Of a DNA stretch of 64,000 bases, positions 1-34,025 are shown piece after piece. Location of the stretch: NCBI RefSeq assembly GCF_000350525.1, contig NZ_AOCN01000019.1:62001-126000 (forward strand), read 5' to 3'. Each line of letters starts with the position of its first letter. Position 1 is the stretch's first letter. The notes beneath the pieces are model-generated. The model was not told the DNA's origin and ran no database searches. It saw only the letters and a program-made list of their open reading frames with translations. Position numbers and translations under genes: made by a program. This DNA comes from Leucobacter salsicius M1-8. Its GTDB lineage: Bacteria > Actinomycetota > Actinomycetes > Actinomycetales > Microbacteriaceae.

Positions 1-516
1 GCCCTCGTGCATCCAGCTGCCGATGATGGTGAAAGCTTCATCTCCTGTACGGACCAACAGTAGCTCCTCGCCGTTCTCGCTCGTAAGTATGAGCTCATCG
101 TCTGCGGTGATCTGGACGCGGGTGGCGTCCCACACAGCGAAAGGAATCGCGACGTTGTCGCATGCGATGAGCGTCATCGCACCGCCAACGCCGCCATCAA
201 AGGTGCCATCGTCCTCGACACTCCAATCACCCTGGGCACCATTGCAGCCATCAGAAGCGCTCCAAATCCCGTGGTCGCTGAATTCGACGAAGGCTTCTTG
301 ATTTGCGGGCTCGGGGGCTTGCCAGCGGCCGATGAGCAGCGATTCGTAGTCCTGGTCTCCCCCTGGCGCCAGATCTGTTGGCTCACCTTGTCCTGAACTT
401 GAGCCCGTTGGGATGCCGTGCAGCATCGGTGCGGTGATGGCCATTCCCGCGAAGTTCGCGCCAAACGCAAGCGCCCCCGCGATCACAACACCGACGGCAA
501 ATTTTAGATTAGACAT
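1..516 (-). CDS. Secreted META/HslJ-like protein (3' end outside window)
   Basis: An open frame runs from ATG at 514-516 to the left edge without a stop, giving 172 residues of an incomplete protein. The N-terminus is a hydrophobic signal or anchor segment (residues 5-28, rich in A, V, G). Residues 53-172 look like a META/HslJ-type beta domain, with GRW at about 60, an SDGCN turn, and a GG-MTLIAC strand containing a conserved-looking Cys. An AGGGAG Shine-Dalgarno sequence sits about 7 nt before the ATG. META domains occur in bacterial lipoproteins and heat-shock protein HslJ, and their biochemical role is poorly known. The protein is probably exported. The fold assignment is from motif resemblance only. 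Confidence 0.7.
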   Translation of the reverse strand, partial: MSNLKFAVGVVIAGALAFGANFAGMAITAPMLHGIPTGSSSGQGEPTDLAPGGDQDYESLLIGRWQAPEPANQEAFVEFSDHGIWSASDGCNGAQGDWSVEDDGTFDGGVGGAMTLIACDNVAIPFAVWDATRVQITADDELILTSENGEELLLVRTGDEAFTIIGSWMHEG

Positions 517-598
517 TGGGCGACTCCCTGAGCTCGAAGAAAGCGGTCGTATCGATGAGTGTACGGGTTTGAGTCTAAGTCGAACCGTGGTTGTTCTT

Positions 599-810
599 CT
601 ATTGAGTCGTGCTGGGCCCCTCGGAGGTGGGTGTAAGTCGTGTTTCGACAAGGTCTGTGAGTTCGGCAATCCGAAGGCTGTCCCTGCGCAATTCAAGTAC
701 GGCCGCTTCGAGCCTCGCTATTCGCTCACGATCGGAATTATGCTGATTCTTGCGTGGAATCAGAGCGCGAACGAGTCGGGACCTAAGGTTTTTCTGGTCG
801 GGTTCGGTCA

Positions 811-811
<1 letters not shown>
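599..811 (-). CDS. 70-residue charged coiled-coil protein, coupled to upstream gene
   Basis: The start ATG (809-811) overlaps the TAA stop of the LicD/methyltransferase gene by one base (TAATG), so translation is probably coupled. The protein is small and charged. Residues 1-22 are basic (RSRLVRALIPRK). Residues 25-55 have a heptad-like pattern (RIARLEAAVLELRRDSLRIAEL) typical of a short coiled coil. The tail is Thr/Ser/Pro-rich. There is no signal peptide or membrane segment. Coupling suggests it works with the upstream enzyme, perhaps as an oligomerisation or membrane-surface adaptor. Longer starts upstream would lie inside the neighbouring gene and are less likely. Confidence 0.65.
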
Positions 812-3609
<2,798 letters not shown>

Positions 3610-3622
3610 GCAGCACAGTTTC

Positions 3623-3658
3623 AGGCAATCCGGTAAATGCCTCAACTAGGTATTTTTT
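3623..3658 (+). terminator. Weak terminator after glf
   Basis: A 5-bp stem AGGCA/TGCCT with a 10-nt loop is followed 10 nt later by six T residues (3653-3658). This is weak but well placed between glf and the next gene. Confidence 0.35.
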
Positions 3659-3719
3659 ACTGAGCGTGTGCGTAGTCGAGGGAGTTTGTGCTTACCGCAT
3701 GCGTATTGCGGAGTTCGTG

Positions 3720-3748
3720 TTCAGAATTTTCTCAGCTTCGCTTACACT
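3720..3748 (+). promoter_or_regulatory. Sigma-70-type promoter of SLH metallopeptidase gene
   Basis: TTCAGA (3720-3725), a 17-nt spacer and TACACT (3743-3748) resemble -35 and -10 boxes. The predicted start near 3755 leaves a leader of about 30 nt that includes the GGAGG before the TTG start. Confidence 0.5.
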
Positions 3749-3786
3749 GATGTCTGATCATTGTCAGTCCCCGGCGGAGGTACTCG

Positions 3787-6198
3787 TTGCGTAATACATC
3801 CAAGACACTCGTGGGGGGTGTGCTCGCGGCCCTGCTCGTATTGAGCGCGTCGCCCGCTCAAGCATTTGGGCCTCAGGATCCCGTAGTCGGGACAGAACAG
3901 GAGACTCCGGTCACCGATCCGCCCGTCATCATCGAAGACGAGGACACGGAGGAGGGCAACCAGGCCCCCGCGGACGTACCCCAGGATGCACCTGAGTCAG
4001 ATGAGACCGGTGCAGCCGAAGAAGGTCCCGCTGAGGAAATTCCCGCTGAAGAGGCTCCCGCTGACGATGCAGTAGCTGTAAAGGCAGACGCATCGAAAAC
4101 GGTGACCGAGGTGCCCGATACGATCGGATTGTCCGGTCGCCTGGTGCTTCTGCCCAACGAACCCAACCCGACTGCGGCCGAGGGTGAAGTTGCGGCGGAC
4201 GCAGGGCTATTTTCAGGAGTGCTGCTCGCGACAGACAGCGGAGCGTTTGTGCCCGTCGACACGTCGGCCATCAGCGAGCCGATCTCGGGGGACAGCGAGT
4301 TCACCGGGTCCGCCGTTCTGCCAGAATCGGCCCGCGCGGCCGTGGCTGCTCAGCTCAAGGCCGAAGGCGCATTGACTGAGGTGCAGATGCTCGACACCGT
4401 CAACCAGGCTGTTATTGAACAGGAAGAAGAGCTTCAAGCCACTGGCACCGTCACGACGCCAGTTGAAGCGCTCTCTGGCTCCCCACTTGGGGCTGCCCCC
4501 TCCAAGAAGAAGCACACGGCCGACGTAGTCTATTTTGGTGGGTCCTCGAGCTCGCGTAACTTCAACGAGACCCAGATTAGAAGTCTCGTGGGTCAAACGA
4601 GTACTTACTGGAAATCACAGAGCAATGGTGCTGTCGATGGTCTTGCCGTGAGCAAGTACAAGGCGCTTCCCCGGACCACCGGTGCTTGCGTTCCCGCGAC
4701 TCTGTGGAGCGCCGCGGCTCAGTACTTCAAGGCGAAATCAAACACATACACGAATGGTCACCACCTCATTGTGGTCGCTGATTCGAAGTACCGCTGTGGC
4801 GGGGGTGCAGGTCTCGCAGGTATCGGCACCAATATTCACGCTGGCGGTGAAATCTGGGTAGACCTTGCAGGATGGAGCAACTCTTCAGACCCCGCATCGC
4901 AGGGCACGGTCAATAAGTCGTTGTCGACGCTCGCCCACGAGGTCGGGCACAACTTGAGCCTTGGCCACTCGCAGTCGCGCGTTTGCTCTGGCCGCACGAT
5001 TGACGCTCGTACTACGTGGAAGGATGACGACCAGAACCGAGGGATCCTCAAAGTCCTGAAGCCTTCTGGCTCGACTTGCCAAGACGTTGAGTATGGCAAC
5101 ACCTGGGACCTGATGGGTCACACCAACAGTGCTGGTCCTAAGCCGGTCGCCTTGGGCCTGGCTCAGCGTACCGCGCTGGGAGTAAACCCGTCTGGTAGCA
5201 TACGCACGGTCCAGGCCAGCGGTGGTCGGGTTCAGAACTTCACGCTCAACCCTATGGGTAACAACTCAGGGCTTCGCGGCTTGAAGGTCTCGAACCCTCG
5301 TGGTGAGTCGTTCTACGTCGAGTACCGCAATAACGTGGGACAGGACTCGTCCGGTCCCAATGCCAACTTAGTGTATTCTGCAGATCGCGTCACCGCTGTG
5401 ACCAACGGTGTCGTGGTTTCGAAGAGCTACCCGACCGCAAAATTCAATCGCGGTGGAACTTGGGTTCCCTACGCAGCTAAGCGCAGCACGGCCCTGACGT
5501 ATTACAAGACGTCAGGCTCGTACGCCAACATGAAGCACCTTGCGATGGCGAAGGGCGGCGTCTCCACCCCGATCTCGAGCGTCGCGCGGGTGCGTGTCAC
5601 AAACATTGCCGGTGGTAAGGCTAACGTGCGCGTTGAGTTCGCTCCTTTCACCGACGTCACGTACGACCAGCAATTCGCGAAGGAGATTGACTGGATGAGC
5701 TCATCCAAGATCTCGACAGGCTATAGCGCTGGCAGCGGTTTGCGAAAGTACGAGCCCAAGGCTCCCGTGACCCGTGCGGCCATGGCTGCATTTATCTACC
5801 GCATGGAGAAGGCGAACTACCCTCTTCCAAAGAAGTCACCGTTCGTCGATGTGAAGAAGAGCGATCCTTACTTTCGGGAGATTGCCTGGATGTACAAGGA
5901 AGGCATCTCCAAGGGCACGATTAGGAACGGTAAGCGTTATTACGATCCGAAGTCTGCGGTGTCGCGTCAAGCGATGTCTGCGTTCTTGTACCGAGTAGAT
6001 AAGGCGACCTACAAGGGGGCACCGAAGTCTCCTTTCGTCGACGTCCCCAAGAATCACATGTTCTACAAGCAGATCACCTGGATGGAGAGCAAGGGCATCA
6101 CGGAAGGCACCCGGAAAAACGGGAAGCTGTACTACAACCCGAAGTCTGCGGTGTCGCGTCAAGCAATGGCTGCGTTCTTGTACCGCCTGAAGCACTAG
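3787..6198 (+). CDS. Secreted SLH-domain reprolysin-like metallopeptidase
   Basis: 803 residues. The start is TTG at 3787, fixed by GGAGG six nt upstream. A signal peptide (1-26, ending SPAQA) is followed by an acidic Pro/Glu/Ala linker (about 30-100) and a probable propeptide. The catalytic domain (about 240-615) has the zinc site HEVGHNLSLGH at 384-394 and a probable Met-turn DLMG at Met443, so it is metzincin-like (M12-type). The usual Gly at the eighth site position is Ser. Three S-layer-homology modules (about 618-682, 683-746, 747-803) share the pattern FVDV...ITWM...GIT.GT...VSRQAMAAFLYR and should bind it to the cell wall. It is probably a wall-attached extracellular protease. The substrate is unknown. 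Confidence 0.85.
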   Translation: MRNTSKTLVGGVLAALLVLSASPAQAFGPQDPVVGTEQETPVTDPPVIIEDEDTEEGNQAPADVPQDAPESDETGAAEEGPAEEIPAEEAPADDAVAVKADASKTVTEVPDTIGLSGRLVLLPNEPNPTAAEGEVAADAGLFSGVLLATDSGAFVPVDTSAISEPISGDSEFTGSAVLPESARAAVAAQLKAEGALTEVQMLDTVNQAVIEQEEELQATGTVTTPVEALSGSPLGAAPSKKKHTADVVYFGGSSSSRNFNETQIRSLVGQTSTYWKSQSNGAVDGLAVSKYKALPRTTGACVPATLWSAAAQYFKAKSNTYTNGHHLIVVADSKYRCGGGAGLAGIGTNIHAGGEIWVDLAGWSNSSDPASQGTVNKSLSTLAHEVGHNLSLGHSQSRVCSGRTIDARTTWKDDDQNRGILKVLKPSGSTCQDVEYGNTWDLMGHTNSAGPKPVALGLAQRTALGVNPSGSIRTVQASGGRVQNFTLNPMGNNSGLRGLKVSNPRGESFYVEYRNNVGQDSSGPNANLVYSADRVTAVTNGVVVSKSYPTAKFNRGGTWVPYAAKRSTALTYYKTSGSYANMKHLAMAKGGVSTPISSVARVRVTNIAGGKANVRVEFAPFTDVTYDQQFAKEIDWMSSSKISTGYSAGSGLRKYEPKAPVTRAAMAAFIYRMEKANYPLPKKSPFVDVKKSDPYFREIAWMYKEGISKGTIRNGKRYYDPKSAVSRQAMSAFLYRVDKATYKGAPKSPFVDVPKNHMFYKQITWMESKGITEGTRKNGKLYYNPKSAVSRQAMAAFLYRLKH

Positions 6199-21842: not shown

Positions 21843-24800
21843 GTGTGGAGTGTAGATCGGCGTCGGCGACCAGAACCGGGTCGCGAAGATCGTGGCGCCT
21901 CGAGCGCAACGAGTGAGCAGCCCACGGAGCAGCTTATTCCCGCGAACGAGGGCTCGCTTGCTCGCGCGCCACAACCTCAGGAGCCGGATCTGGCCGCCGA
22001 TTTGTCGGGCCCGCCCGTGTCGCTCGTGGACGCGTACGCAGACGAGCACGCGCAGTGGCGCGCCGAGCTCGTGCGCATTGGTGGGCGCAACCCGCTGCTG
22101 CACTTCGACGATCGCCCTGCCAACCGGATCGAGCTTTCTTCGACCCACCCCGGTGGCCTGCCCCAGTTCATTACGGGCAACAAGATTCTGCTGTCGGCGC
22201 TGATTCGCGACGACCTCGCACTGCGCCACGCCAAGTATGCAGCTGGTCGGGTCACCGACAAGGCCATCGAAATGCGCACGGTGCGCGGTCTCGAGACCGT
22301 TCACCTCGGCGTCGGTATTGCCAAGTGGACGTTTGAGGGCGAAGAGTTCTGTGCCCCGGTGCTGCTGCGTCCCGTCGCAATTCGCCGCTACGGGCGCGAC
22401 TACGAACTCAAGCTCAAGCAGTTCCCCGTCGTCAACTCCGAGCTGATTCGCGTGATGCGCGAGCAGTTTGGCATCGCTGTCGACGCCCGTGTGCTCATCG
22501 AGCTGTCACAGTCCGAGGGTGTGTTCAAGCCACAGCCCGTGATTGATCGATTGCGGCAGATGGCCGCCGGCGTTCCCGAGTTTGTGGTGCAGCCGCGGCT
22601 CGTGGTCTCGTCGTTCCATAACGTCTCGCAGCTGATGGTCTCCGACGCCAAGGGGCTCGACTCGCAGCTGCTCTCGGCGATCTGTGGCAGCGAGCCCGCG
22701 CGTAAGGGGCTGGCCGAGGGCTTTCGCCCGGTCACGCCGACGCCGTCAGACGAGCGCTCGCCCGACACCGATCGCTACCTCTACGACGCCGATGCTGAGC
22801 AGGACGACGTGCTCGCGCAGATTGCTGCGGGGCACCCGCTCGTCGTACACACGCTTCCCGGCACGGGCGGCACCCAGACGGTCGTCAATGCGATCGGGAG
22901 CCTGGCCCGCGAGGGCAAGCGCGTGCTCGTTGTGTCGCCGCGCCGAGCCACCCTTGACGGCATCACACACCGGCTCACTCGCGCCGGCCTTCCCGGCCTG
23001 TCAGTCGGCCCCCGCCGGCTGCGCCGCGGCCTGGTCGAGTCGATCAGTCGCAACGAGAACGCCCGCGGCGAGCAGCTGCGCGACGTCGACGCCGCCCTCA
23101 CCCGGTTGCGTGGCGCGCTCGTGGATTACCGTGCCGCGCTTAAGGATCCGGATGCCCGGTATGGTGTCTCGCCCATTGAGGCGCTTCGCGAGCTGACCCA
23201 GCTGTCGCAGATGGAGCAGCCGCCGACGACCACGGTACGGCTTGACGATCACGCCCTCGCGCAGCTCACGATCGATCGCTCGGCGATGGCCGAGGCGCTC
23301 ACCGAGGTCGCACGACTCGGGCAGTTCCAGTACGGTCCCGAGGATTCCCCCTGGTACGGAGTCAGCTTCAGCACGACCGAAGAGGCGCGCAAGGCGTACT
23401 CGCTCGCGGTCAACCTCGCCGAGTCGCAGCTGCCCCGCCTGATTTCCATGGCCAACGAGGTCGTCGGACAGACCTCCATGCGCCCGTACGAGACGATCGC
23501 CGAGCTGGGCGTCTACCTGCGGCTGCTCATGGGGCTGCGCGACACCCTCGACCGGTTCACGCCCGATGTCTACGACCGTTCGTTGACCGAGGTCATTGCG
23601 GCCCACGCCCCGCGCGGGGCCGAGGAGATGACGTCGTCGAACAAGCGGCGCCTGCGCAAGCTGGCCCGCGAGTACGTGCGCCCCGGCGTGCACATCTCTG
23701 ACATGTATGCGCGACTCGTGCAGATTCAGCAGCAGCGCGTGCTGTGGCAGCGCTACAGCACGATTGAGGGCACACGCCCCGAGGTGCCGCTGGGGATTGC
23801 CGACGTCGTGGCGGCCTACCAGTCGGCCTACCAAGACCTCGACGCGCTCGATGCCGTGCTCGAGATCAATGCTGACCGTGACCGGCTCAAGAACCTGACG
23901 CTGGGCGGCCTCGCCGAGCGCGTCTCTGATCTCGCACGGGAGTCGGAGGTGCTGCAGAACATTCAGGAGCGCACGACCATCGTCGAGCGCATGCGCCAGG
24001 CGCACCTCGAGCCGCTGCTCGACGACCTGTCGGCCCGCCATGTGCCGTCCGACGGGGTCGCCGCTGAGCTCGAGCTTGCATGGTGGCAGTCGGCGCTCGA
24101 ACGCATGCTTCAGACCAACGAGGCGCTGCTGAGCGCAAACACCTCGGTGATCGATCGACTCGAAGCCGACTTCAGGTTGGTCGACGACGCACACTGCGGA
24201 GCGAACGGCACGCTGCTCGCGGCCTCGCTCGCCGACGCCTGGCGGGTGGCGGTGCTCGACCACAAGCACGAGGCGCTCGCGATGCGTGAGGCGCTGCGCA
24301 GCCGCTACGTGACGGCAGGGCTGCTCGCGCAGCACGCGCCGACCCTGCTTTCGACGCTGGCCCCGGTGTGGGCGATGTCGCCGTACGAGGTGGCGCAGCT
24401 GCCCGACTCCATGCGGTTTGACACAGTGCTGCTCGTCGACGCCGGTGCGACGACGCTCGTCGAGAACCTGGGCGCGATTCGCCGCGCAGACCAGGTCGTT
24501 GCATTCGGCGACACGATGACGCAGAGCCCGTCGCGGTTCGAGATCGCCGTGGGCCCCGTCGACGAGTCCGAAGATCAGGCTGCGGGCCTCGTCGAGCTGA
24601 CGCACGAGCACTCGGCGTTCGCGCAGCTGGGGGAGGTGCTCCCGACGCTCACGCTCACGCGCAGCTACCGCGCGGGCGGCGAAGATCTCACACACCTCGT
24701 GAACTCCCGGTTCTACGACGGCGCGATCCAGACGATGCCGTGGGCTGGTTCCTTCCTCGGCCGTTCGAGCCTCACCTACGACTTCGTCGCGGGCGGGCAG

Positions 24801-25664
24801 GGGCTTCCCGACCAGAACACGGGCGCGGTTGAGAGCACCGATGCTGAGGTTGAGCGGGTGGTGCAGCTCGTGCTCGAGCACGCGAGCGACCGCGCCAGCG
24901 AGTCACTCATGGTCATCACGGCGAGTTCGCGCCACGCGGTGCGGGTCTACCAGGCCGTGTTGCAGGCATTCTCGAAGTTTCCGCAGTACCGCGAGTTCTT
25001 GCTCGGCGAGCGCGCCGAGCCGTTTGCGGTGCTCACCCTCGAGCAGGCGACCGCGCAGAGCCGCGACCGTGTGATCTTCTCCATCGGTTACGGCCGCACG
25101 CCGCACGGCCGGGTGCTGTCGAACTTCGGTGGTCTCGGCAAGCCCGGTGGCGAGCGGTTGCTCGCGGTCGCGATGACCCGCGCCCGCCGGGCCATGACGA
25201 TCGTCAGCTGCTTCAAGCCGAAGGACCTCGACAAGGCGCGCATCAAGCACGGCGTGGTCGACCTCGCCGAGCTGCTCGCGCACGAGCACCCCGAACCGGC
25301 AGAGCCGGCGCTTCCCGCGCAGCGCGACCCCATGCTGGGGGAGCTTGCCGACCGGCTCGAGGAGCGCGGGATCCGCGTTGTGCTCGACTACCTCGGCGTC
25401 ATTCCGATCGCGGCCTCGTTTGGTGAACGCGCGATTGCCATCGACATTGATCTCGGCGACGGCTCGGACAGCCTGCGCGACACGCTGCGGCTGCGGCCGG
25501 CGGTGCTGCGCCGACTCGGCTGGCACTACCACCGCGTGCAGAGCTTCGACCTGTTCACCGACCCCGACGAGGTGGCACGCCGCATCGCGCGCATGGTCGG
25601 CTTTGAGGACGGTGCGAGTGCAGACGGCTCGAACGCGAGCGACGTGAGCCCCAAAGCCCAGTGA
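21843..25664 (+). CDS. Large SF1-helicase-like protein with degenerate Walker motifs
   Basis: 1273 residues. The layout matches the DUF4011-type superfamily 1 helicases: an N-terminal beta domain (about 60-260), a first RecA-like half starting near 325, a long helical insertion (about 420-830), a second half with motifs near LTRSYRAGGEDL and AVAMTRARRAM, and a C-terminal endonuclease-like fold (about 1160-1250). Key residues are altered. The Walker A-like loop reads PGTGGTQT (339-346), with Gly343 in place of the invariant Lys. The Walker B-like strand reads LLVDAGATT, with Ala867 in place of Glu. ATP hydrolysis is therefore doubtful and the protein may be a pseudo-helicase scaffold. It overlaps the next small gene by four nt. 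Confidence 0.75.
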   Translation: MWSVDRRRRPEPGREDRGASSATSEQPTEQLIPANEGSLARAPQPQEPDLAADLSGPPVSLVDAYADEHAQWRAELVRIGGRNPLLHFDDRPANRIELSSTHPGGLPQFITGNKILLSALIRDDLALRHAKYAAGRVTDKAIEMRTVRGLETVHLGVGIAKWTFEGEEFCAPVLLRPVAIRRYGRDYELKLKQFPVVNSELIRVMREQFGIAVDARVLIELSQSEGVFKPQPVIDRLRQMAAGVPEFVVQPRLVVSSFHNVSQLMVSDAKGLDSQLLSAICGSEPARKGLAEGFRPVTPTPSDERSPDTDRYLYDADAEQDDVLAQIAAGHPLVVHTLPGTGGTQTVVNAIGSLAREGKRVLVVSPRRATLDGITHRLTRAGLPGLSVGPRRLRRGLVESISRNENARGEQLRDVDAALTRLRGALVDYRAALKDPDARYGVSPIEALRELTQLSQMEQPPTTTVRLDDHALAQLTIDRSAMAEALTEVARLGQFQYGPEDSPWYGVSFSTTEEARKAYSLAVNLAESQLPRLISMANEVVGQTSMRPYETIAELGVYLRLLMGLRDTLDRFTPDVYDRSLTEVIAAHAPRGAEEMTSSNKRRLRKLAREYVRPGVHISDMYARLVQIQQQRVLWQRYSTIEGTRPEVPLGIADVVAAYQSAYQDLDALDAVLEINADRDRLKNLTLGGLAERVSDLARESEVLQNIQERTTIVERMRQAHLEPLLDDLSARHVPSDGVAAELELAWWQSALERMLQTNEALLSANTSVIDRLEADFRLVDDAHCGANGTLLAASLADAWRVAVLDHKHEALAMREALRSRYVTAGLLAQHAPTLLSTLAPVWAMSPYEVAQLPDSMRFDTVLLVDAGATTLVENLGAIRRADQVVAFGDTMTQSPSRFEIAVGPVDESEDQAAGLVELTHEHSAFAQLGEVLPTLTLTRSYRAGGEDLTHLVNSRFYDGAIQTMPWAGSFLGRSSLTYDFVAGGQGLPDQNTGAVESTDAEVERVVQLVLEHASDRASESLMVITASSRHAVRVYQAVLQAFSKFPQYREFLLGERAEPFAVLTLEQATAQSRDRVIFSIGYGRTPHGRVLSNFGGLGKPGGERLLAVAMTRARRAMTIVSCFKPKDLDKARIKHGVVDLAELLAHEHPEPAEPALPAQRDPMLGELADRLEERGIRVVLDYLGVIPIAASFGERAIAIDIDLGDGSDSLRDTLRLRPAVLRRLGWHYHRVQSFDLFTDPDEVARRIARMVGFEDGASADGSNASDVSPKAQ

Positions 25665-25897
25665 CCGCAGAAATCGGCAACGCGTCAGACGGCGCTGGTC
25701 GGGGCGGTGCGCGGCGACCTAGTCGCCGCGCGTCTCGCCCGGCTCCCGCCGGTGTCGACCCGAGACCGTCGGAGCACCTGTTGAACGCGAAGGCATCAGA
25801 GGATCGGCCCGAGGGATGGGGCGACGCGTCGGCGCGCAAGCAGGTGAGCGCCCACGACGAGGCGCTGCGGCGCGACCGCCCACCGCACTGGGGCTAG
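25661..25897 (+). CDS. 78-residue hydrophilic protein coupled to the SF1-like gene
   Basis: The GTG start overlaps the TGA stop of the upstream gene (GTGA), so translation is probably coupled. The protein is rich in Arg, Pro, Ala and Gly and probably disordered. It ends with the motif ALRRDRPPHWG, which I recall from small proteins in related actinobacteria. No enzyme motif is present. It may assist the large helicase-like protein, but this rests only on coupling. Confidence 0.6.
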   Translation: MTAEIGNASDGAGRGGARRPSRRASRPAPAGVDPRPSEHLLNAKASEDRPEGWGDASARKQVSAHDEALRRDRPPHWG

Positions 25898-25927: not shown

Positions 25928-26218
25928 TTAGCTGGCCGAGGCTGCTGATCCGGAGCTCGAAGCACCGGAAGAACCTGATCCCGAAGAGCTTGAAGAGCTT
26001 GAAGAGCTTGAAGAGCTCGAGGACTTGGCCGACGAGCTCTCCGCGCGCGAATCGGTGCGGTAGAAGCCAGAACCGTTGAAGGTTACGCCGAGCGATCCAA
26101 ACACCTTGCGCAGGGTGCCATCGCACTCGGGGCACGTGGTCAGCGCGTCGTCAGAGAACGACTGGTAGATGTCAAAGGCGTGACCGCAGTCAGCGCAGCG
26201 ATAAGCGTATGTAGGCAC
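25928..26218 (-). CDS. FmdB-family zinc-ribbon protein with polyserine tail
   Basis: 96 residues. The N-terminal MPTYAYRCADCGHAFDI and a second CPEC pair form the zinc ribbon of the FmdB putative regulatory family. Residues 51-96 are almost pure Ser with Gly and Ala, about 40 residues of disordered tail encoded partly by a 9-bp tandem repeat. The family-like start is GTG at 26218. ATG at 26227 would add three residues. It follows the 5-formyl-THF cyclo-ligase gene closely (2-11 nt), so they are co-transcribed. The function of FmdB proteins is not settled. Confidence 0.85.
   Translation of the reverse strand: MPTYAYRCADCGHAFDIYQSFSDDALTTCPECDGTLRKVFGSLGVTFNGSGFYRTDSRAESSSAKSSSSSSSSSSSSSSGSGSSGASSSGSAASAS
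25983..26018. repeat. 9-bp tandem repeat inside the polyserine tail
   Basis: Four copies of GAAGAGCTT (the last ends in C) lie head to tail and encode Ser-Ser-Ser on the minus strand. Copy number could vary by slippage without breaking the frame. Confidence 0.9.
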
Positions 26219-26229
26219 AGGGGTCAATG

Positions 26230-26829
26230 CTAGTCGGTGACGCTGAGAACCCGGGTCACTGAGCCGGGGGACACTGCGCCCGTGATCGCGACATCGTGCG
26301 GGTCATGGGGGAGTGTCGCGAAGCGATCGTCGTCGAACACGACCGCGTACACGGGGATGCTCGCGGGCAGCTGCGCGAGGCAGCGATCGTAGTAGCCCAT
26401 GCCCCAGCCCAGCCGTGTGCCCGCTTCGTCGACGGCGCACGCGGGTACCAGCATCAGGTCGACGCCCGCGGCAGCATCGCCGCCGAGTCGTGGGCCCACC
26501 GGTTCGGTGATGCCGTGTCGCCCCGCCGCCAGGCTGTCGACTCCCGTGTAGCGCACCCAATCGAGCCGTGAATCCGCGAGTGACATCGGCAGGATGACGT
26601 CGATGCCCTGGGTGAGCGCCCACTCCAGAAACGGGCCGGTGTCTGGCTCGGAGGGTACGGCGCTGTAAGCCGCCACCGAACGCGCGCCGAGCGCCTCAGT
26701 GAGCGCGATCAGGCGCGCGGTGAGCTGCGCAGTAGCGTCCTCGCGAACCGCCTGCGGCATCGCCCCGCGGCGGGCGCGCACGCTGCGCCGGATCGCGGCC
26801 TTGCTCTTAAGATCCGGGTCCTCACGCAT
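26230..26829 (-). CDS. 5-formyltetrahydrofolate cyclo-ligase
   Basis: 199 residues. It converts 5-formyl-THF to 5,10-methenyl-THF with ATP, salvaging a storage folate. The family signature is the C-terminal RLGWGMGYYDRCLA loop. The N-terminal basic helix (KAAIRRSVRARR) and the central EP-GP strand region are also typical, as is the length. The ATG at 26829 has no Shine-Dalgarno sequence but lies 6 nt after TATGCT, so it is probably leaderless. It diverges from galU. Confidence 0.9.
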   Translation of the reverse strand: MREDPDLKSKAAIRRSVRARRGAMPQAVREDATAQLTARLIALTEALGARSVAAYSAVPSEPDTGPFLEWALTQGIDVILPMSLADSRLDWVRYTGVDSLAAGRHGITEPVGPRLGGDAAAGVDLMLVPACAVDEAGTRLGWGMGYYDRCLAQLPASIPVYAVVFDDDRFATLPHDPHDVAITGAVSPGSVTRVLSVTD

Positions 26830-26917: not shown

Positions 26918-27844
26918 ATGACTGAAGCACACAAGCCTCGCCAGACGGTTACCAAGGCGGTCATTCCGGCCGCGGGTCTCGGGACCCGGTTCCTGCCAGC
27001 GACCAAGGCCATGCCGAAGGAAATGCTGCCGATCGTGGACAAACCCGCGATTCAGTACGTTGTGGAGGAGGCCGCACAGGCCGGCCTCGGCGACGTCCTC
27101 ATCATTACGGGCCGCAACAAGGACAACCTCCTCAACCACTTCGACAGCGTCCCCGAGCTCGAGTACACGCTCGAGCGCAAGGGCGACGAGGGCAAGCTCG
27201 ACAAGGTGCACCAGTCGAGCGAGCTCGCCGAGGTCCACTTCCTACGCCAGGGCCAGCCCAACGGGCTCGGCCACGCAGTGGGCCGGGCCCGCTGCCACGT
27301 GGGCAACGAGTCGTTCGCGGTGCTGCTGGGGGACGACCTGATCGATGCCCGCGACCCGCTGCTGGACCGCATGATTGCTGAGCACGACGCCCGCGGCGCC
27401 ACCGTCATCGCGCTGATGGAGGTTCCCGAGGAATCGATCCACCTGTACGGCTGCGCCGCGGTCGAGGCGACCGACGACCCCGACGTGGTGCGCATTACCG
27501 GGCTCGTGGAAAAGCCGTCTCGCGAGGAGGCACCGTCGAACCTCGCCGTGATCGGTCGCTACGTGCTGCGCCCCGAGATCTTTGACCTGCTCGACGAGCT
27601 GCCGCCCGGTCGCGGTGGCGAGATCCAGCTCACCGACGCGCTTCACGTGCTTGCTGAAGGTAAGGGCGAGGCTCCGGTGTTTGGTGTCGTGTTCCGCGGC
27701 CGCCGGTACGACACGGGCGACCGCGCCGACTGGATCAAGGCAAACGTACTGCTGGGGGTGGACCACCACGAGCTGGGCGCCGAGATCCAGGATTGGGTGA
27801 TCGAGTTCGCCGACCAGCTCCGCGCCAAGCGCTCGGAAGGCTAA
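26918..27844 (+). CDS. galU: UTP-glucose-1-phosphate uridylyltransferase
   Basis: 308 residues. It makes UDP-glucose, the precursor of UDP-galactose, and so of the UDP-galactofuranose made by Glf, and of other glycans. The N-terminal GLGTRFLPATKAMPKE binds the nucleotide. VDKPAIQYVVEEA and LGDDLIDA (metal-binding Asp) follow, then GLVEKPSREEAPSNLAVIGRYVL and RYDTGDRADWIKAN, all in GalU order. The start at 26918 is preferred over the longer frame because it fits the family and the leaderless -10 box. The RimJ-like gene follows 6 nt after its stop. Confidence 0.96.
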   Translation: MTEAHKPRQTVTKAVIPAAGLGTRFLPATKAMPKEMLPIVDKPAIQYVVEEAAQAGLGDVLIITGRNKDNLLNHFDSVPELEYTLERKGDEGKLDKVHQSSELAEVHFLRQGQPNGLGHAVGRARCHVGNESFAVLLGDDLIDARDPLLDRMIAEHDARGATVIALMEVPEESIHLYGCAAVEATDDPDVVRITGLVEKPSREEAPSNLAVIGRYVLRPEIFDLLDELPPGRGGEIQLTDALHVLAEGKGEAPVFGVVFRGRRYDTGDRADWIKANVLLGVDHHELGAEIQDWVIEFADQLRAKRSEG

Positions 27845-29906: not shown

Positions 29907-30668
29907 GTGGTACTCGCACTTTGGATCTCTCTCGTCGGCGTTAGCCTGGTCGTCAGCCTCACCCCCGGGGCCGGCGCAATCAACACGATGTCGAACGCGC
30001 TCGCGGTCGGATGGCGACGCGCTTTCTGGGGTGTCGCCGGGCAACAGTTCGGCATCTTGGCCCACATCGCGGTCGCCGCAGCCGGGATCGGCGTGCTCAT
30101 CACCAGCAGCCCCGTCGCGTTTGCCGCCGTGCGCTATGTGGGAGCCGGCTATCTCATCTTTATTGGGCTGAAGCAATTCTTTGCGCGGCCGAGCGTTGTC
30201 GAGGTTGCCGTGCAGGCCGAACCGGCCGTGGCCCTGTCTGCCGACTATGCTGCAGGCTCCGTCAGCGCCATGTCGACGGGCTCGCTGCAGGTGCTGACGC
30301 ACGCACCCGCACGCACGACAGAGGTGCCGATTCAGCTTAGCGCGCCCGTCCCGGTCGAGGCGGGCCCGAGCGCAAGCAAGCTCATGCGCCGCGGCTTCTG
30401 GGTCAATATCCTGAACCCCAAGGCAGTTGTCTTCTTCCTCGCGATCATGCCGCAGTTCATCTCGGCCGACCTGCCGGCCATGCCGCAGTACCTGATCATC
30501 GCGATCACGATGACCGTGATCGACATGACCATCATGACCTTCGTGTTTGCGGCCGCTGCCGAGCAGTTCCGTCGCTTCACCGGTTCCCCCCGGGGTCAGG
30601 TCATTGCGAACCGGATCTTTGGCACGCTGTTCGTGCTGATTGCCGCGGTCATGCTGGTGCTCAATTGA
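29907..30668 (+). CDS. LysE/RhtB-family exporter with central insertion
   Basis: 253 residues. The family exports amino acids or related compounds and has six helices. LTPGAGAINTMSNALAVGWRRA (first loop) and RGFWVNILNPKAVVFFLAIMPQF are the two diagnostic segments. Typical members have about 205-215 residues. Here the loop between helices 3 and 4 (about 94-160) is roughly 45 residues longer, Ala/Val/Ser/Pro-rich and of low complexity. The frame through the insertion is open and GC3-rich, so it is not a sequencing artefact on its face. The substrate is unknown. Confidence 0.88.
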   Translation: MVLALWISLVGVSLVVSLTPGAGAINTMSNALAVGWRRAFWGVAGQQFGILAHIAVAAAGIGVLITSSPVAFAAVRYVGAGYLIFIGLKQFFARPSVVEVAVQAEPAVALSADYAAGSVSAMSTGSLQVLTHAPARTTEVPIQLSAPVPVEAGPSASKLMRRGFWVNILNPKAVVFFLAIMPQFISADLPAMPQYLIIAITMTVIDMTIMTFVFAAAAEQFRRFTGSPRGQVIANRIFGTLFVLIAAVMLVLN

Positions 30669-30718
30669 TCCGGATCATTCGTTCGTGTCGCGAGTCGCCT
30701 GAGTGCCCGGGGATCCGC

Positions 30719-30724
30719 TAGGCT
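30719..30724 (+). promoter_or_regulatory. -10 box TAGGCT of tRNA-Lys
   Basis: TAGGCT lies 10 nt before the mature tRNA 5' end. Confidence 0.5.
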
Positions 30725-30734
30725 AACTTCTTGG

Positions 30735-30806
30735 GCCCCTATAGCTCAGCGGTAGAGCTACGGACTTTTAATCCGCAGGTCGCAGGTTCGATCCCTGCTG
30801 GGGGCA
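30735..30806 (+). tRNA. tRNA-Lys (anticodon TTT)
   Basis: 72 nt up to the discriminator A. CCA is not encoded. The acceptor GCCCCTA pairs with TGGGGGC (one G-U). The D-stem GCTC/GAGC, an anticodon loop CTTTTAA with TTT, and the T-stem GCAGG/CCTGC are visible. The first anticodon-stem pair (A-C) is mismatched. Confidence 0.95.
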
Positions 30807-30815
30807 CTGTCGTAG

Positions 30816-30986
30816 TCACCAGAAACCCTCGCTTCGGCGGGGGTTTTTGCGTTGAGCGGCGACGTCCTCGATCTTGTTGCCAAACGTTGCGGCAGCTAGG
30901 TCAAGGCGGGATTCGAGGTCAATTGCTTCGGCGACGACTGTAAATAACTCGGTGGAACCGAAGAAGTATCGCCCGCCATTAGGCAA
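30816..30986 (-). CDS. Doubtful 56-residue frame beside tRNA-Lys
   Basis: A minus-strand frame from TTG 30986 encodes a plausible-looking sequence (GRYFFGSTELFTVVAEAID at 5-23) and runs through the tRNA-Lys terminator to a stop at 30816. It has no ribosome binding site or promoter and I do not recognise it. It may be a small gene, the remnant of one, or chance. The rest of the 30849-31011 gap shows nothing else. Confidence 0.2.
   Translation of the reverse strand: MPNGGRYFFGSTELFTVVAEAIDLESRLDLAAATFGNKIEDVAAQRKNPRRSEGFW
30823..30848 (+). terminator. Terminator after tRNA-Lys
   Basis: AAACCCTCGC pairs with GCGGGGGTTT around a TTCG tetraloop, followed by T residues. Confidence 0.85.
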
Positions 30987-31011
30987 TCAGCTCTTGATCT
31001 CGTGATCTGAA

Positions 31012-31017
31012 TAGAAT
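31012..31017 (+). promoter_or_regulatory. -10 box TAGAAT of lipoprotein gene (leaderless)
   Basis: TAGAAT is followed by 7 nt and ATG at 31025. Confidence 0.5.
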
Positions 31018-31024
31018 CGAAATC

Positions 31025-32191
31025 ATGCTTTCCGACAAAGTTGTCTGGCGTTCCAGAACAGCTGCACTCCTGCTCACGACAGGAGTCCTAGTATCGCCGT
31101 TCATGCTCGCGGGCTGTAGTGGTGCGTCCCAATCTCCAGCGGTACACAGCAAGGGGCCGCTCGACGAGTACATGTCAGAGTTGCGCATGAGCGAGGAAGC
31201 CGCAGAGGAGGCCGCCAGAATTGAGCACGATCGGGCGCAGCAACTCACCGCAGTTTGCATGAACAAAGAGGGCTTTGACTACAAGCCTTGGCCCTTTGCT
31301 GGCGGGACTATTTCTGGAGGCCTCACCGGGGGAGGCGTGAGTAGCGAGACCGATGCAGAAGCCGAGAGCTTTGCCAACGCCTACGGGTACGGGATTGTCG
31401 AAGACCCGCGTTTCGACGCGGCGCCTAAAGGCTCAGAAGAACAGATCCTAGAATTTGTGGACGTCAATGGCGACTACGTCAACTCGCTGACTGAATCTGA
31501 GCAGGAGGCCTACCGCGAGGTGTTGAATGGCCCCCCTATGAGCGAAGAAGAGATACGAGCGGAACTCGAAGAAGGACCTCAAACGTTCCTGAAGGGGACC
31601 GGGTGCGCTGGCGAATCCCTGGACAAGGCCAGAAGTGAGCAAAAAACTGCGTTGCACGCTCGCGAGGACCCAGCGTTTCAAGACCTTTTCGAAGCGGAAA
31701 ACCAACTGTATGAGCCGCTCAACGCCGAGGCCCCCACCAACGAAGACGTGATCGCCCTCAATGCTCTGTGGAATCAATGCATGACGAAGCTCGGACACTC
31801 CGTCTATGCGTCCCCGCTCAACGCTCACAACACGCTTGGCCTGGAGTACGAGCAGATGGAGACCGAAGCTAGCAATCTCAATCAAGCCGTGAGCAAGGCT
31901 GAAATGGATAGATTCCAGGCACTCGAAGTTGATGTGGCATCAGCTGATCTATCGTGTAGCAAATCCGTCAACTACGAGGCGGAGCTTGAACGAATTACGC
32001 ACGAACTCGAGCAAGTATTTGTTGACGAGCACAGGGCTGAGCTTGAGGCACTCGTCGTTCTGTACGGAACGCCCCAGAAAAAGTGGTGCGGATCTGTCAA
32101 CTCGTCAGCCTGCCTCAATCGAATCTTTCGAAACGCTGTCCAAGTATCGGTACCGGAATTTTCGGGATTGGGTTACATTCATAGCGTCTGA
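31025..32191 (+). CDS. Unrecognised lipoprotein, 388 residues
   Basis: The N-terminus is a lipoprotein signal: basic start, hydrophobic segment and lipobox LAGC with Cys31. The mature part is acidic and mostly helical (repeated EE and AEE), with a pattern of isolated Cys residues (for example in AVCMNKEGFDYKPWPF, GTGCAGES, LWNQCMTK and LSCSKSV) that could form disulfides outside the cell. The CMNKEGF and CMTKLGH segments look like two related modules. Codon use is less GC3-biased than neighbours, which hints at faster evolution or later acquisition. A second lipoprotein gene follows after 28 nt. No function can be assigned. Confidence 0.75.
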   Translation: MLSDKVVWRSRTAALLLTTGVLVSPFMLAGCSGASQSPAVHSKGPLDEYMSELRMSEEAAEEAARIEHDRAQQLTAVCMNKEGFDYKPWPFAGGTISGGLTGGGVSSETDAEAESFANAYGYGIVEDPRFDAAPKGSEEQILEFVDVNGDYVNSLTESEQEAYREVLNGPPMSEEEIRAELEEGPQTFLKGTGCAGESLDKARSEQKTALHAREDPAFQDLFEAENQLYEPLNAEAPTNEDVIALNALWNQCMTKLGHSVYASPLNAHNTLGLEYEQMETEASNLNQAVSKAEMDRFQALEVDVASADLSCSKSVNYEAELERITHELEQVFVDEHRAELEALVVLYGTPQKKWCGSVNSSACLNRIFRNAVQVSVPEFSGLGYIHSV

Positions 32192-32219
32192 AAGAAGTCA
32201 ATGCGAGTGAGGGGTGAGT

Positions 32220-32882
32220 ATGAAGAGGACAATTGCCGCCGGTTTGATGGCAGCTGTGCTCATCGTTCAGACTGCGGGTTGTGCTGGTCCGTCGAAAGAC
32301 AATGAACTGCCTGCGCCGGATCCATCCCCCGCTGTTTCTGCACCGCGGCAGGTGAACCCGAACGGGGTTGAAAGCAGCGAGGAATGTATCGTTCGCGACG
32401 ACCTCGGTGAGCCGATTTGGACGGGGCAAGCTTCAGGTGAGTTGACTGCAGTCGGGGACGCACTCCAGAGCATCGTCGATTCCCATCCCGATCTGGCAAC
32501 GGGAGTCGCCTACTGTTCAGCCTTCGAGGGTGTGGTCATCTTTGTGGCGGCGCAGGAGACCGTACTGCTGGAGAGCATCGAGCGCGTTCGCCAGGAATCC
32601 CCTGAAGTGCGTGTGATCGTCGATGAAGTCCCTGCCCCGCTTTCGCTCCTGATCGACATATCAACTGATCTCATGAGCCAGCTCGGCCCTGAAGTAGGCA
32701 TTACAGCCCTCGGCCCTGATGTCCATTCCGGTGGGCTCTACGTCGGGCTGTCCTCTGAGGATTCGAGATCAACCGCCGAACGATTTATCGAGTCACACCT
32801 CATAAAAGACCGTGGGCTCGACCTGCCGGTGAGATACGGTGTCGAGGGGGCAGGCGAAAATTCACTAGATACAAGTTTGTAG
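32220..32882 (+). CDS. Unrecognised lipoprotein with possible protease-prodomain-like fold
   Basis: 220 residues from ATG 32220, with GAGGGG five nt upstream. GTG 32214 is an alternative. The lipobox TAGC has Cys21. A Pro/Ser-rich linker reaches about residue 55. The rest has alternating strands and helices, with LGPDVHSGGLYVGLSS near the C-terminus, which resembles the GVDVxxNxVVVG strand of alpha-lytic-protease prodomains. No protease domain follows, so if the likeness is real it would be a stand-alone inhibitor-like module. This is weak inference. Probably co-transcribed with the upstream lipoprotein gene. Confidence 0.65.
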   Translation: MKRTIAAGLMAAVLIVQTAGCAGPSKDNELPAPDPSPAVSAPRQVNPNGVESSEECIVRDDLGEPIWTGQASGELTAVGDALQSIVDSHPDLATGVAYCSAFEGVVIFVAAQETVLLESIERVRQESPEVRVIVDEVPAPLSLLIDISTDLMSQLGPEVGITALGPDVHSGGLYVGLSSEDSRSTAERFIESHLIKDRGLDLPVRYGVEGAGENSLDTSL

Positions 32883-33035
32883 TGCTTTTCGGGTGCCAAA
32901 TCTGAAGGGGCGACTTGCTAGAAAGCTTGTTAACCGCTGGTTTCTGAGTCCACTAGCGCCGGGCATAGTGGTGATGGCAGCTGTAGCCGAAGCCGCGTCA
33001 GTAGGGGCTCAGCGAGTCTGAGAAAGAATAGGACT

Positions 33036-33827
33036 ATGTCAGTCCCACGTATCCCCGAAATGCCAGAACCGCAGTACATCATGTCGGATGAAGGGTTTCG
33101 GCTCGCAACCTACATGTGGGGTGAAGAGGATGCGCCCACGGTCATTGCGGTGCATGGCTTCGCGTCGAGTTGCCGGGATACCTGGTTGGAAACAGGCTGG
33201 ATCGGGAGCCTGCTTCAGGCTGGCTTCAGGGTGCTCGGGGTCGATCAACGCGGTCATGGTAAGAGCGAGAAGCCTGCTCGCGCTGAGGAGTACACGATTC
33301 CGAAGCTCGTGGGCGACATCGAAACGATCCTCGATACCTGGATGGTGGACCCCGTGCTCTATCTCGGCTATTCGCTCGGCGCCCGCGTCGGCTGGCACGT
33401 GTGTTCGCAGTTTGAGGGCCGTGTCGAACGCGCAGTGCTTGGCGGCATCCCCGATGGGCGCCCGCTCGGTCGGCTCGATCTGGCACAGGCCAACGCCTTT
33501 ATTGAACGGGGCGTGCCCGTGACTGACGCGGCAACTCAGAACTACGTGCGTCTCGCCGAACGAGTGCCCGAGAATGACCTTCGCGCACTCGTCGCGCTCG
33601 CGGGCGGCATGAGGCTGGGTGAAGAAAACACGGATCTTGGAGATCCGCCCTCGCAGCCGGTGCTCGTAGCGACGGGCAGCCTAGATGGGGTGCTCGAGGA
33701 GTCTCGGAAGGTCGCCTCTCTGCTGCCGAATGGAACCTTCGTCGAGATCGACAAGCGGCACCACTTCAACACCCCCGGCGCCCGACAATTTCGACAGCTG
33801 GGGATCGAATTCTTGCAGACTCGCTAG
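33036..33827 (+). CDS. Alpha/beta hydrolase
   Basis: 263 residues. VIAVHGFASS is the oxyanion-hole strand, GVDQRGHGKSEKP is typical of lipase/epoxide-hydrolase-like members, GYSLGAR carries the nucleophilic Ser, ATGSLDGV the probable acid, and KRHHFNTPGAR the catalytic His. It is cytoplasmic, with no signal peptide. The substrate cannot be predicted from sequence. The 153-nt gap before it has no other gene. Confidence 0.88.
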   Translation: MSVPRIPEMPEPQYIMSDEGFRLATYMWGEEDAPTVIAVHGFASSCRDTWLETGWIGSLLQAGFRVLGVDQRGHGKSEKPARAEEYTIPKLVGDIETILDTWMVDPVLYLGYSLGARVGWHVCSQFEGRVERAVLGGIPDGRPLGRLDLAQANAFIERGVPVTDAATQNYVRLAERVPENDLRALVALAGGMRLGEENTDLGDPPSQPVLVATGSLDGVLEESRKVASLLPNGTFVEIDKRHHFNTPGARQFRQLGIEFLQTR

Positions 33828-34025
33828 CTCAGTCTGAAGCGTCTCAACGAACACCCAGAGGAGCGCAACGGAGGCGCCACGAGCGCGAGTCAAATATTGC
33901 GTGGTGTATTCCCTAAGCGTACTCATTTCAGCTGGGCACGATTCGAGGCTTCGCGGCGTAGACTCGCGAGGTCGACCGGTCGCCCCTCGGTCGCGGTTGG
34001 AGTGAATACTTTGTCTCGTGAACAC

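Follow-up and report, generated by a model that had tools for sequence, protein, structure and literature searches.

Leucobacter salsicius carries a near-universal gene of the Microbacteriaceae for a helicase-like protein with an apparently dead motor, beside the gene of a small PPHW-tailed protein

A window of 64,000 nucleotides of the genome of Leucobacter salsicius M1-8 (the whole stretch of DNA analysed here, i.e., positions 62,001 to 126,000 of contig NZ_AOCN01000019.1) carries a gene for a 1273-residue protein in which a DUF4011 region, a core resembling the superfamily 1 (SF1) helicase Upf1 and a Vsr-like restriction endonuclease (REase) domain follow one another; judged from its sequence, the motor of this large protein is in all likelihood dead, that is, incapable of ATP hydrolysis, and the loss is fixed. 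According to the genomes sampled, the gene is near-universal in the family Microbacteriaceae and under strong purifying selection, and a small gene, the product of which ends in the peptide PPHW, is its frequent companion. The parts of the large gene are the following:

21843..25664, plus strand: putative pseudo-helicase gene (DUF4011, Upf1-like SF1 core, Vsr-like REase), 1273 residues, stop codon included.
22077..22418, plus strand: DUF4011 match (residues 79-192), lying within the N-terminal stretch that can be aligned to the beginning of the Upf1 core.
22854..22880, plus strand: Walker A region LPGTGGTQT, with Gly343 (codon 22869-22871) replacing Lys.
24420..24452, plus strand: Walker B region DTVLLVDAGAT, with V865-D866 (24435-24440) replacing D-E.
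24612..25208, plus strand: second RecA-like domain, a weak AAA_12 match (residues 924-1122) below the cut-off; Arg of motifs IV and VI kept, QG..E of motif V lost.
25425..25592, plus strand: REase_MTES_1575/Vsr-like domain match (residues 1195-1250), below the cut-off; D1203 kept, acid of R-I-D lost upstream of the match.

The open reading frame (ORF), called intact in a preliminary description of this DNA, runs without any break from a GTG start to a TGA stop, and the absence of the Walker A lysine which that description had pointed out is confirmed: where relatives read PPGTGKSQT, the codon is GGC and encodes a glycine. In what follows, L-numbers denote fetched loci and f-numbers families (f38 and f25 lie outside the order); the partial rows L188, L251, L258, and L261 were removed before motifs were counted and trees were built. 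A first family alignment contained Lys in 0 of 136 rows (132 Gly, 4 Ala); the gene of the window itself is counted in this set, as are some genomes twice over, and removal of the repeats left 112 distinct Microbacteriaceae orthologues, in which residue 343 is Gly in 108, Ala in 4, and Lys in none, which answers the earlier query whether Gly343 is a property of the whole family. All four glycine codons occur at this position, and the surrounding loop hardly varies, L338, P339, G340, G342, T344, Q345, and T346 being invariant in all 112 rows and T341 being replaced by a single Ala. Close homologues with an intact GKT, which the preliminary description had proposed as the sign of an error or of a decaying allele, do not occur among these orthologues; lysine-bearing ones are found in other families only.

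The D-E pair of Walker B is missing from the 1273-residue protein in either register. Since residues 860-890 are equally long (31 positions) in 101 of 101 aligned rows, the register is gapless; the D of the relatives' FDEAS pairs with Val865 and the E with Asp866, while Ala867 is aligned with the Ala that follows this pair. The preliminary description was therefore right about the loss of the pair and off by one about its place, because the relatives' D-E aligns without gaps at V865-D866 and Ala867 is not the changed residue. Within the 101 rows, D-E is present in all 19 that bear the lysine (11 filed as paralogues and 8 core) and in none of the 82 core rows that lack it; in further rows of f18 it is found in 6/6 with Lys and 0/5 without. 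The glutamine of motif III (T893 in the window protein) and the QG..E of motif V are gone in 24 of 24 Microbacteriaceae rows, and Arg943 of motif IV and Arg1113 of motif VI are retained in 24 of 24. As to domain models, the protein passes the Pfam gathering cut-off of DUF4011 (PF13195; 24.4 bits vs 22.2), matches both AAA_11 and AAA_12 only weakly, and misses that of REase_MTES_1575 (PF18741; 27.6 bits vs 38.2); the lysine-bearing orthologue L179 scores 71.2 bits with the latter.

Of the 54 genomes of the genus, 53 have a match to the large protein (any match at E <= 0.001 in the sampled genomes; orthology was examined on the fetched rows), as have 297 of 299 in the family (85/85 genera), 292 of 297 in the order (94/95 genera), and 90 of 296 in the class. 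In ten pairwise comparisons within the genus, the ratio of non-synonymous to synonymous substitution rates (dN/dS) of the large gene lies between 0.018 and 0.151, the value of the P-loop domain being lower than that of the whole protein in eight of them, and the long frame survives even in small genomes (1175 residues in a single-contig genome of 0.9 Mb, 1205 in one of 0.8 Mb). The earlier proposal of a pseudo-helicase under selection is thus strongly supported by the fixed loss, the near-universal presence, the low dN/dS, and the joint loss of several motifs. A sequencing error or a decaying allele was considered and rejected, its probability being virtually nil in view of the 112 orthologues without Lys, the variation of the synonymous codons, and the low dN/dS.

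The residue found in place of the lysine differs from family to family: it is mostly Gly in f1, Gln in f6, Ala or Asn in f7, Leu or Ala in f16, Ala in f2, f8, f15, and f19, and, outside the order, Arg or Thr in f38 and f25; in f3, f4, f9, f10, f12, f14, and f20, the P-loop is unrecognisable, the long ORF still being kept. Lysine-bearing orthologues occur in f5 (one row read), in f18, and in L195 and L197 outside the order; f18 itself is mixed, with Lys in 11 of 17 readable rows and none in 6. In trees built from columns excluding motifs I and II, 12 of the 14 core families listed fall on one side of a branch, and three state changes are required on the best trees. A single loss of the lysine was rejected by the approximately unbiased test (p = 1.3e-7; 1123 columns, 24 rows, 14 of them lysine-less), the result being borderline (p 0.051) with an alignment of 420 columns and 38 rows, among them those 24; because joining f38 and f25 to the main lysine-less group is compatible with both alignments (p 0.29 and 0.35), two losses are established and the third belongs to the best tree only. 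In these tests a single f18 row, L282, carries the second loss, L284 and four other rows of this family without the lysine having been read by motif only; the mixture within f18 hints at losses beyond three. To judge from these comparisons, the switch-off of the motor has occurred more than once.

An AlphaFold2 model of residues 62-1256, computed from an alignment of 62 rows, has a mean predicted local distance difference test (pLDDT) score of 73.8, with good values in the N-terminal and first RecA-like domains. The predicted structure shows the two RecA-like domains of an Upf1-like fold, the second partly at low confidence; in structure comparison, the nearest solved folds are Upf1 (2xzp; Z 20.6, 451 residues aligned, root-mean-square deviation (rmsd) 7.8), IGHMBP2 (4b3g; Z 20.6, 421 aligned, rmsd 5.5), and Dna2 (5eax; Z 20.1), and a sequence-profile comparison with solved structures also puts these three nearest, with Sen1 weaker. 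The C-terminal stretch, modelled alone (mean pLDDT 75.2), is most similar to 3hrl (Z 9.7, 86 aligned, rmsd 2.6), followed by the Holliday junction resolvase Hjc (4tkd, Z 8.0) and Vsr (1cw0, Z 7.1), Upx (9wuf) appearing at Z 5.9; Foldseek matches are weak (best E 0.0097). As modelled, this part has a REase/Vsr-like fold, and the endonuclease-like fold of the preliminary description thus holds, with the addition that the site looks inactive in Microbacteriaceae. Indeed, the nuclease is probably off in the window protein, because the relatives' R-I-D reads I-P-I and the Glu of E-x-D-G is an Asp (D-I-D-L); the Asp of R-I-D is missing in the 24 Microbacteriaceae rows read at this place, and D1203 and a Glu or Asp at residue 1201 are retained in 24 of 24. 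Asp at the R-I-D place is seen in several lysine-less rows elsewhere (L173, L174, L167, L170, L267, and L268 of f6; L286 and L287 of f18).

The stop codon of the large gene overlaps the start of the small one:

25661..25664, plus strand: GTGA stop/start overlap of the large and small genes, 4 nucleotides.
25661..25897, plus strand: small gene, 78 residues, stop codon included; low-complexity product in which an Arg-rich centre, ED....WGD, and a PPHWG end are conserved.
25880..25897, plus strand: C-terminal PPHWG and stop codon.

The overlap is real, as the preliminary description had stated, and, with the start chosen, 27 out of 39 distinct Leucobacter rows have one of four bases. An alignment of 52 small proteins shows P-P-H to be invariant in every row, together with the Arg-rich centre and, in part, the ED....WGD stretch. 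Scanning of 191 loci (some fetched twice, and 5 with flanks too short) revealed an ORF ending in PPH[WY] downstream of the large gene in 149 and inside the C-terminus of the large ORF in 8; the natural fusions of small and large proteins occur both with and without the Walker A lysine. In the 157 distinct loci with both flanks left after removal of duplicates, such an ORF lies downstream in 129, vs 1 of 2782 random stretches, and in the control positions in 0 (upstream), 4 (downstream antisense), and 0 (upstream antisense). The dN/dS of the small gene is below 1 in all 420 filtered pairs from 31 rows of the genus (median 0.36). What had been described as a 78-residue disordered protein is therefore real and of low complexity, and is more than was claimed, being the product of a conserved companion gene.

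A profile of the small protein finds one clear copy in its own genome (the other match, at E 0.1, has no PPHW end among its listed ORFs) and, at E <= 0.01, matches in 86 of the 197 genomes searched in the class, weaker matches being counted unchecked; among the models of Pfam and NCBIfam, none is matched by the window copy at E 1. In loci L225-L227, from other orders of the class, the PPHW gene adjoins mscL, with fmdB nearby in L225 and L227; since no large protein was found there, the PPHW protein must have another partner in these loci. In the f35 loci L221, L222, L229, and L236, it adjoins the gene of a protein of 700-780 residues, which in L221 is a STAND-type NTPase with tetratricopeptide repeats, possibly a replacement partner.

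Downstream of the small gene, the window directly continues with conserved neighbours:

25928..26227, minus strand: fmdB-type zinc-ribbon gene.
26230..26829, minus strand: 5-formyltetrahydrofolate cyclo-ligase (5-FCL) gene.
26918..27844, plus strand: galU-like gene, start chosen at 26918.

Across loci, the small gene, mscL, a SAF-domain gene, fmdB, 5-FCL, and the galU-like gene recur as neighbours with varying completeness. In particular, mscL lies near the lysine-bearing genes of L176, L177, and L179 as well as the lysine-less ones of L100, L114, and L199, and fmdB near those of L176 and L179 (lysine-bearing) and of L114 and L199 (lysine-less); because of the shared neighbourhood together with the tree, lysine-bearing and lysine-less genes are taken to be orthologues and not imports. 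A CBS-domain protein of 152-170 residues (Pfam match for L234 only) is encoded between the large and PPHW genes in the f38 loci L231-L234 and L199. Elsewhere in the window, positions 1-6000 and 30001-34000 have a G+C content of 0.58-0.59, vs about 0.64-0.69 in most of the rest; a tRNA-Lys gene (30735-30807) lies within the low-G+C stretch starting at 30001, which resembles an inserted segment, and a tRNA-Ile gene called by ARAGORN at 5079-5158, unreported by Rfam at its gathering score, may be spurious or represent an unusual tRNA.

Several other explanations of the large protein have to be weighed. In WNK kinases another basic residue takes over from the usual lysine, and a still active, unusual ATPase could likewise employ a residue near motif Ia or an arginine of motif IV or VI in place of the Walker A lysine; the invariance of G340, G342, T344, Q345, and T346 in the 112 orthologues and the retained arginines of motifs IV and VI agree with this proposal, which is nevertheless rather unlikely, the D-E pair, the glutamine of motif III, and motif V being gone as well, and seven families having eroded the entire P-loop while keeping the long ORF. 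A transcription-associated protein similar to HelD, which would keep hold of RNA polymerase or free it without any unwinding, is suggested by the Mycobacterium smegmatis HelD-RNA polymerase complexes among the Foldseek matches of the model (8q3i, E 1.2e-4; 8qn8, E 2.5e-4); since Upf1-like proteins score higher and HelD is not in the best 50 VIA-align matches listed, we regard this role as unlikely.

The relationship to anti-phage proteins is evident from the library searches, in which the best matches are the PADLOC model PDC-S37 (350.7 bits) and the NCBIfam models ProA (NF058533; 337.9 bits) and Hhe (NF042953; 164.1 bits), and a working defence protein of this kind might be supposed; however, the scores are far under the curated cut-offs of 1500 (ProA) and 2000 (Hhe), so that the protein is a member of neither, the gene is near-universal and vertically inherited, and its catalytic motifs are lost, whereas the second copies found in the genus retain them, all of which makes such a function very improbable. 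The same near-universal, vertical inheritance led to the rejection of a defence-island gene as the leading explanation, and a mobile defence gene is unlikely. The chance appears slight, finally, that a dead copy regulates or dampens the active ProA-like paralogues of its own genome or a phage counterpart, as its domain set, the same as that of the lysine-bearing paralogues, would allow: only 7 of the 54 Leucobacter genomes are listed with a second copy that bears the lysine (1802-2182 residues long in six of them, 1416 in the other), compared to 53 of 54 with a match to the core protein.

The explanation that we favour, and hold to be probable, albeit by no means certain, is that of a vertically inherited SF1B helicase-nuclease turned into an ATP-independent scaffold, acting with a tail protein in a housekeeping role. 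It starts from what is observed, i.e., the losses of catalytic motifs, the purifying selection, the conserved neighbourhood, and a small protein that is co-conserved and sometimes fused. An ancestor similar to Upf1, IGHMBP2, and Dna2 would have lost ATP hydrolysis, the loss becoming fixed, and, in Microbacteriaceae, probably DNA cleavage too; the large protein would have kept its fold and may bind DNA or RNA as an ATP-independent platform, by analogy with the PriA protein of Deinococcus radiodurans, which is reported to keep DNA binding and contact with DnaB without unwinding (PMC4504706). The chances are about even that the large protein is such a scaffold with the PPHW protein as its partner, in which case the Arg-rich centre of the small protein may contact nucleic acid or protein and its free C-terminal PPHW(G) peptide, containing Trp or Tyr, could be a docking ligand read by another protein; the pair might then recruit or hold another machine, involved in DNA repair, replication restart, or the handling of RNA polymerase.

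A number of observations weigh against this explanation. The P-loop glycines, T344, and the arginines of motifs IV and VI are retained, so that nucleotide binding without the lysine is possible; parts of the second RecA-like domain fall below a pLDDT of 50 in a model with a mean of 73.8; f3 and f14 are mixed on the tree, where L136, filed as a paralogue, clusters with the core row L195. The loss of the nuclease is uneven: the f6 rows still have an Asp in the R-I-D position and ends of the ESDG type, and because the six rows read keep this residue, loss of the motor can precede, or occur without, loss of the nuclease. As to the small protein, no PPH[WY] ORF was found near the large gene in 29 of the 191 loci scanned, nor was a PPHW ORF seen there in L296 and L297 (f4) or in L301, from the 0.9-Mb genome, and the small protein also occurs in genomes G634, G635, G638, G639, and G642, which have no match to the large one; the pairing, having exceptions of both kinds, is thus frequent and not strict.

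A motor-less machine seems to do a housekeeping job in these organisms, because L. salsicius and most relatives keep the motor-dead protein beside a protein with a near-fixed tail. More tentatively, and with considerable doubt on our part, an order-wide housekeeping complex of actinomycetes may be envisaged, in which a helicase-nuclease with a dead motor is paired with a tiny disordered protein: the docking signal of the latter, C-terminal PPH[WY](G), would predate the dead helicase, an ancestor related to ProA and Hhe would have become a core gene in the mscL-fmdB-5-FCL neighbourhood, the motor would have been switched off at least twice independently, and the platform would be hard to lose even in genomes of 0.8-0.9 Mb. 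What deserves attention is that a gene related to anti-phage helicase-nucleases has its motor off, as far as the motifs tell, in most families of an order, and that a small protein occurring across the class, its C-terminal peptide almost invariable, has come to light; the natural series of orthologues (intact, lysine-less, with the P-loop erased) therefore allows one to ask directly what a helicase does without its motor.

The REase family, like pseudohelicases and DUF4011 proteins, has been described before; the companion PPHW protein may be new. In the literature searched, no paper was found describing the lysine-less family or the PPHW protein, none on PDC-S37, none on combinations of antiphage, ProA, DUF4011, Vsr, and DUF3320, and none related to an 'RPPHW' peptide; among the matches listed, no paper on transposon mutagenesis or essential genes of Microbacteriaceae concerned the large gene by its title or the start of its abstract, and no title announced a structure of Upx.

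Among characterised helicases, the SF1B proteins Upf1, IGHMBP2, Dna2, and Sen1 match the model over its residues 1-1093 (62-1154 of the protein) with Z of 16.9-20.6; they have intact motifs I and II, and the window protein differs from them in having neither. PriA belongs to superfamily 2, not to SF1B, and is not known to have a nuclease domain. In Deinococcus radiodurans, PriA is reported to be a pseudohelicase incapable of ATP hydrolysis and unwinding (PMC4504706); the likeness lies in a protein kept despite helicase motifs poorly conserved throughout a lineage, and the difference in that its activity was measured, whereas the window protein is judged from sequence. A DUF4011 core gene flanks the defence hotspot cDHS1 of Pseudomonas aeruginosa, and its product is likewise large and reported in every isolate of the species (PMC10250203); it belongs to another phylum.

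The closest known systems are ProA, PDC-S37, and Hhe, which have the same succession of domains as the window protein (DUF4011, the AAA_11/AAA_12 core, REase_MTES_1575) and are clearly related to it in sequence; they differ in length, the models comprising 1903, 1550, and 1797 positions, respectively (1911 for Hhe in PADLOC), vs 1273 residues, and in that well-matching relatives keep the motifs which the window protein, near-universal in its family, has lost. Within the same genus, L140 (1847-8350, minus strand) encodes a protein of 2168 residues that scores 1740.1 bits with ProA, above the cut-off, contains a HEPN_Swt1 domain, and has the lysine, the D-E pair, and the other listed helicase motifs intact. 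MTES_1575 of Microbacterium testaceum is reported to be an SF1 helicase of more than 2100 residues with a Vsr-type REase domain, a HEPN domain called active, and transglutaminase and winged helix-turn-helix domains (PMC3710099); it has in common with the window protein the SF1 helicase and the family of the REase domain and, unlike the window gene, resembles the long paralogues with HEPN_Swt1, such as L140.

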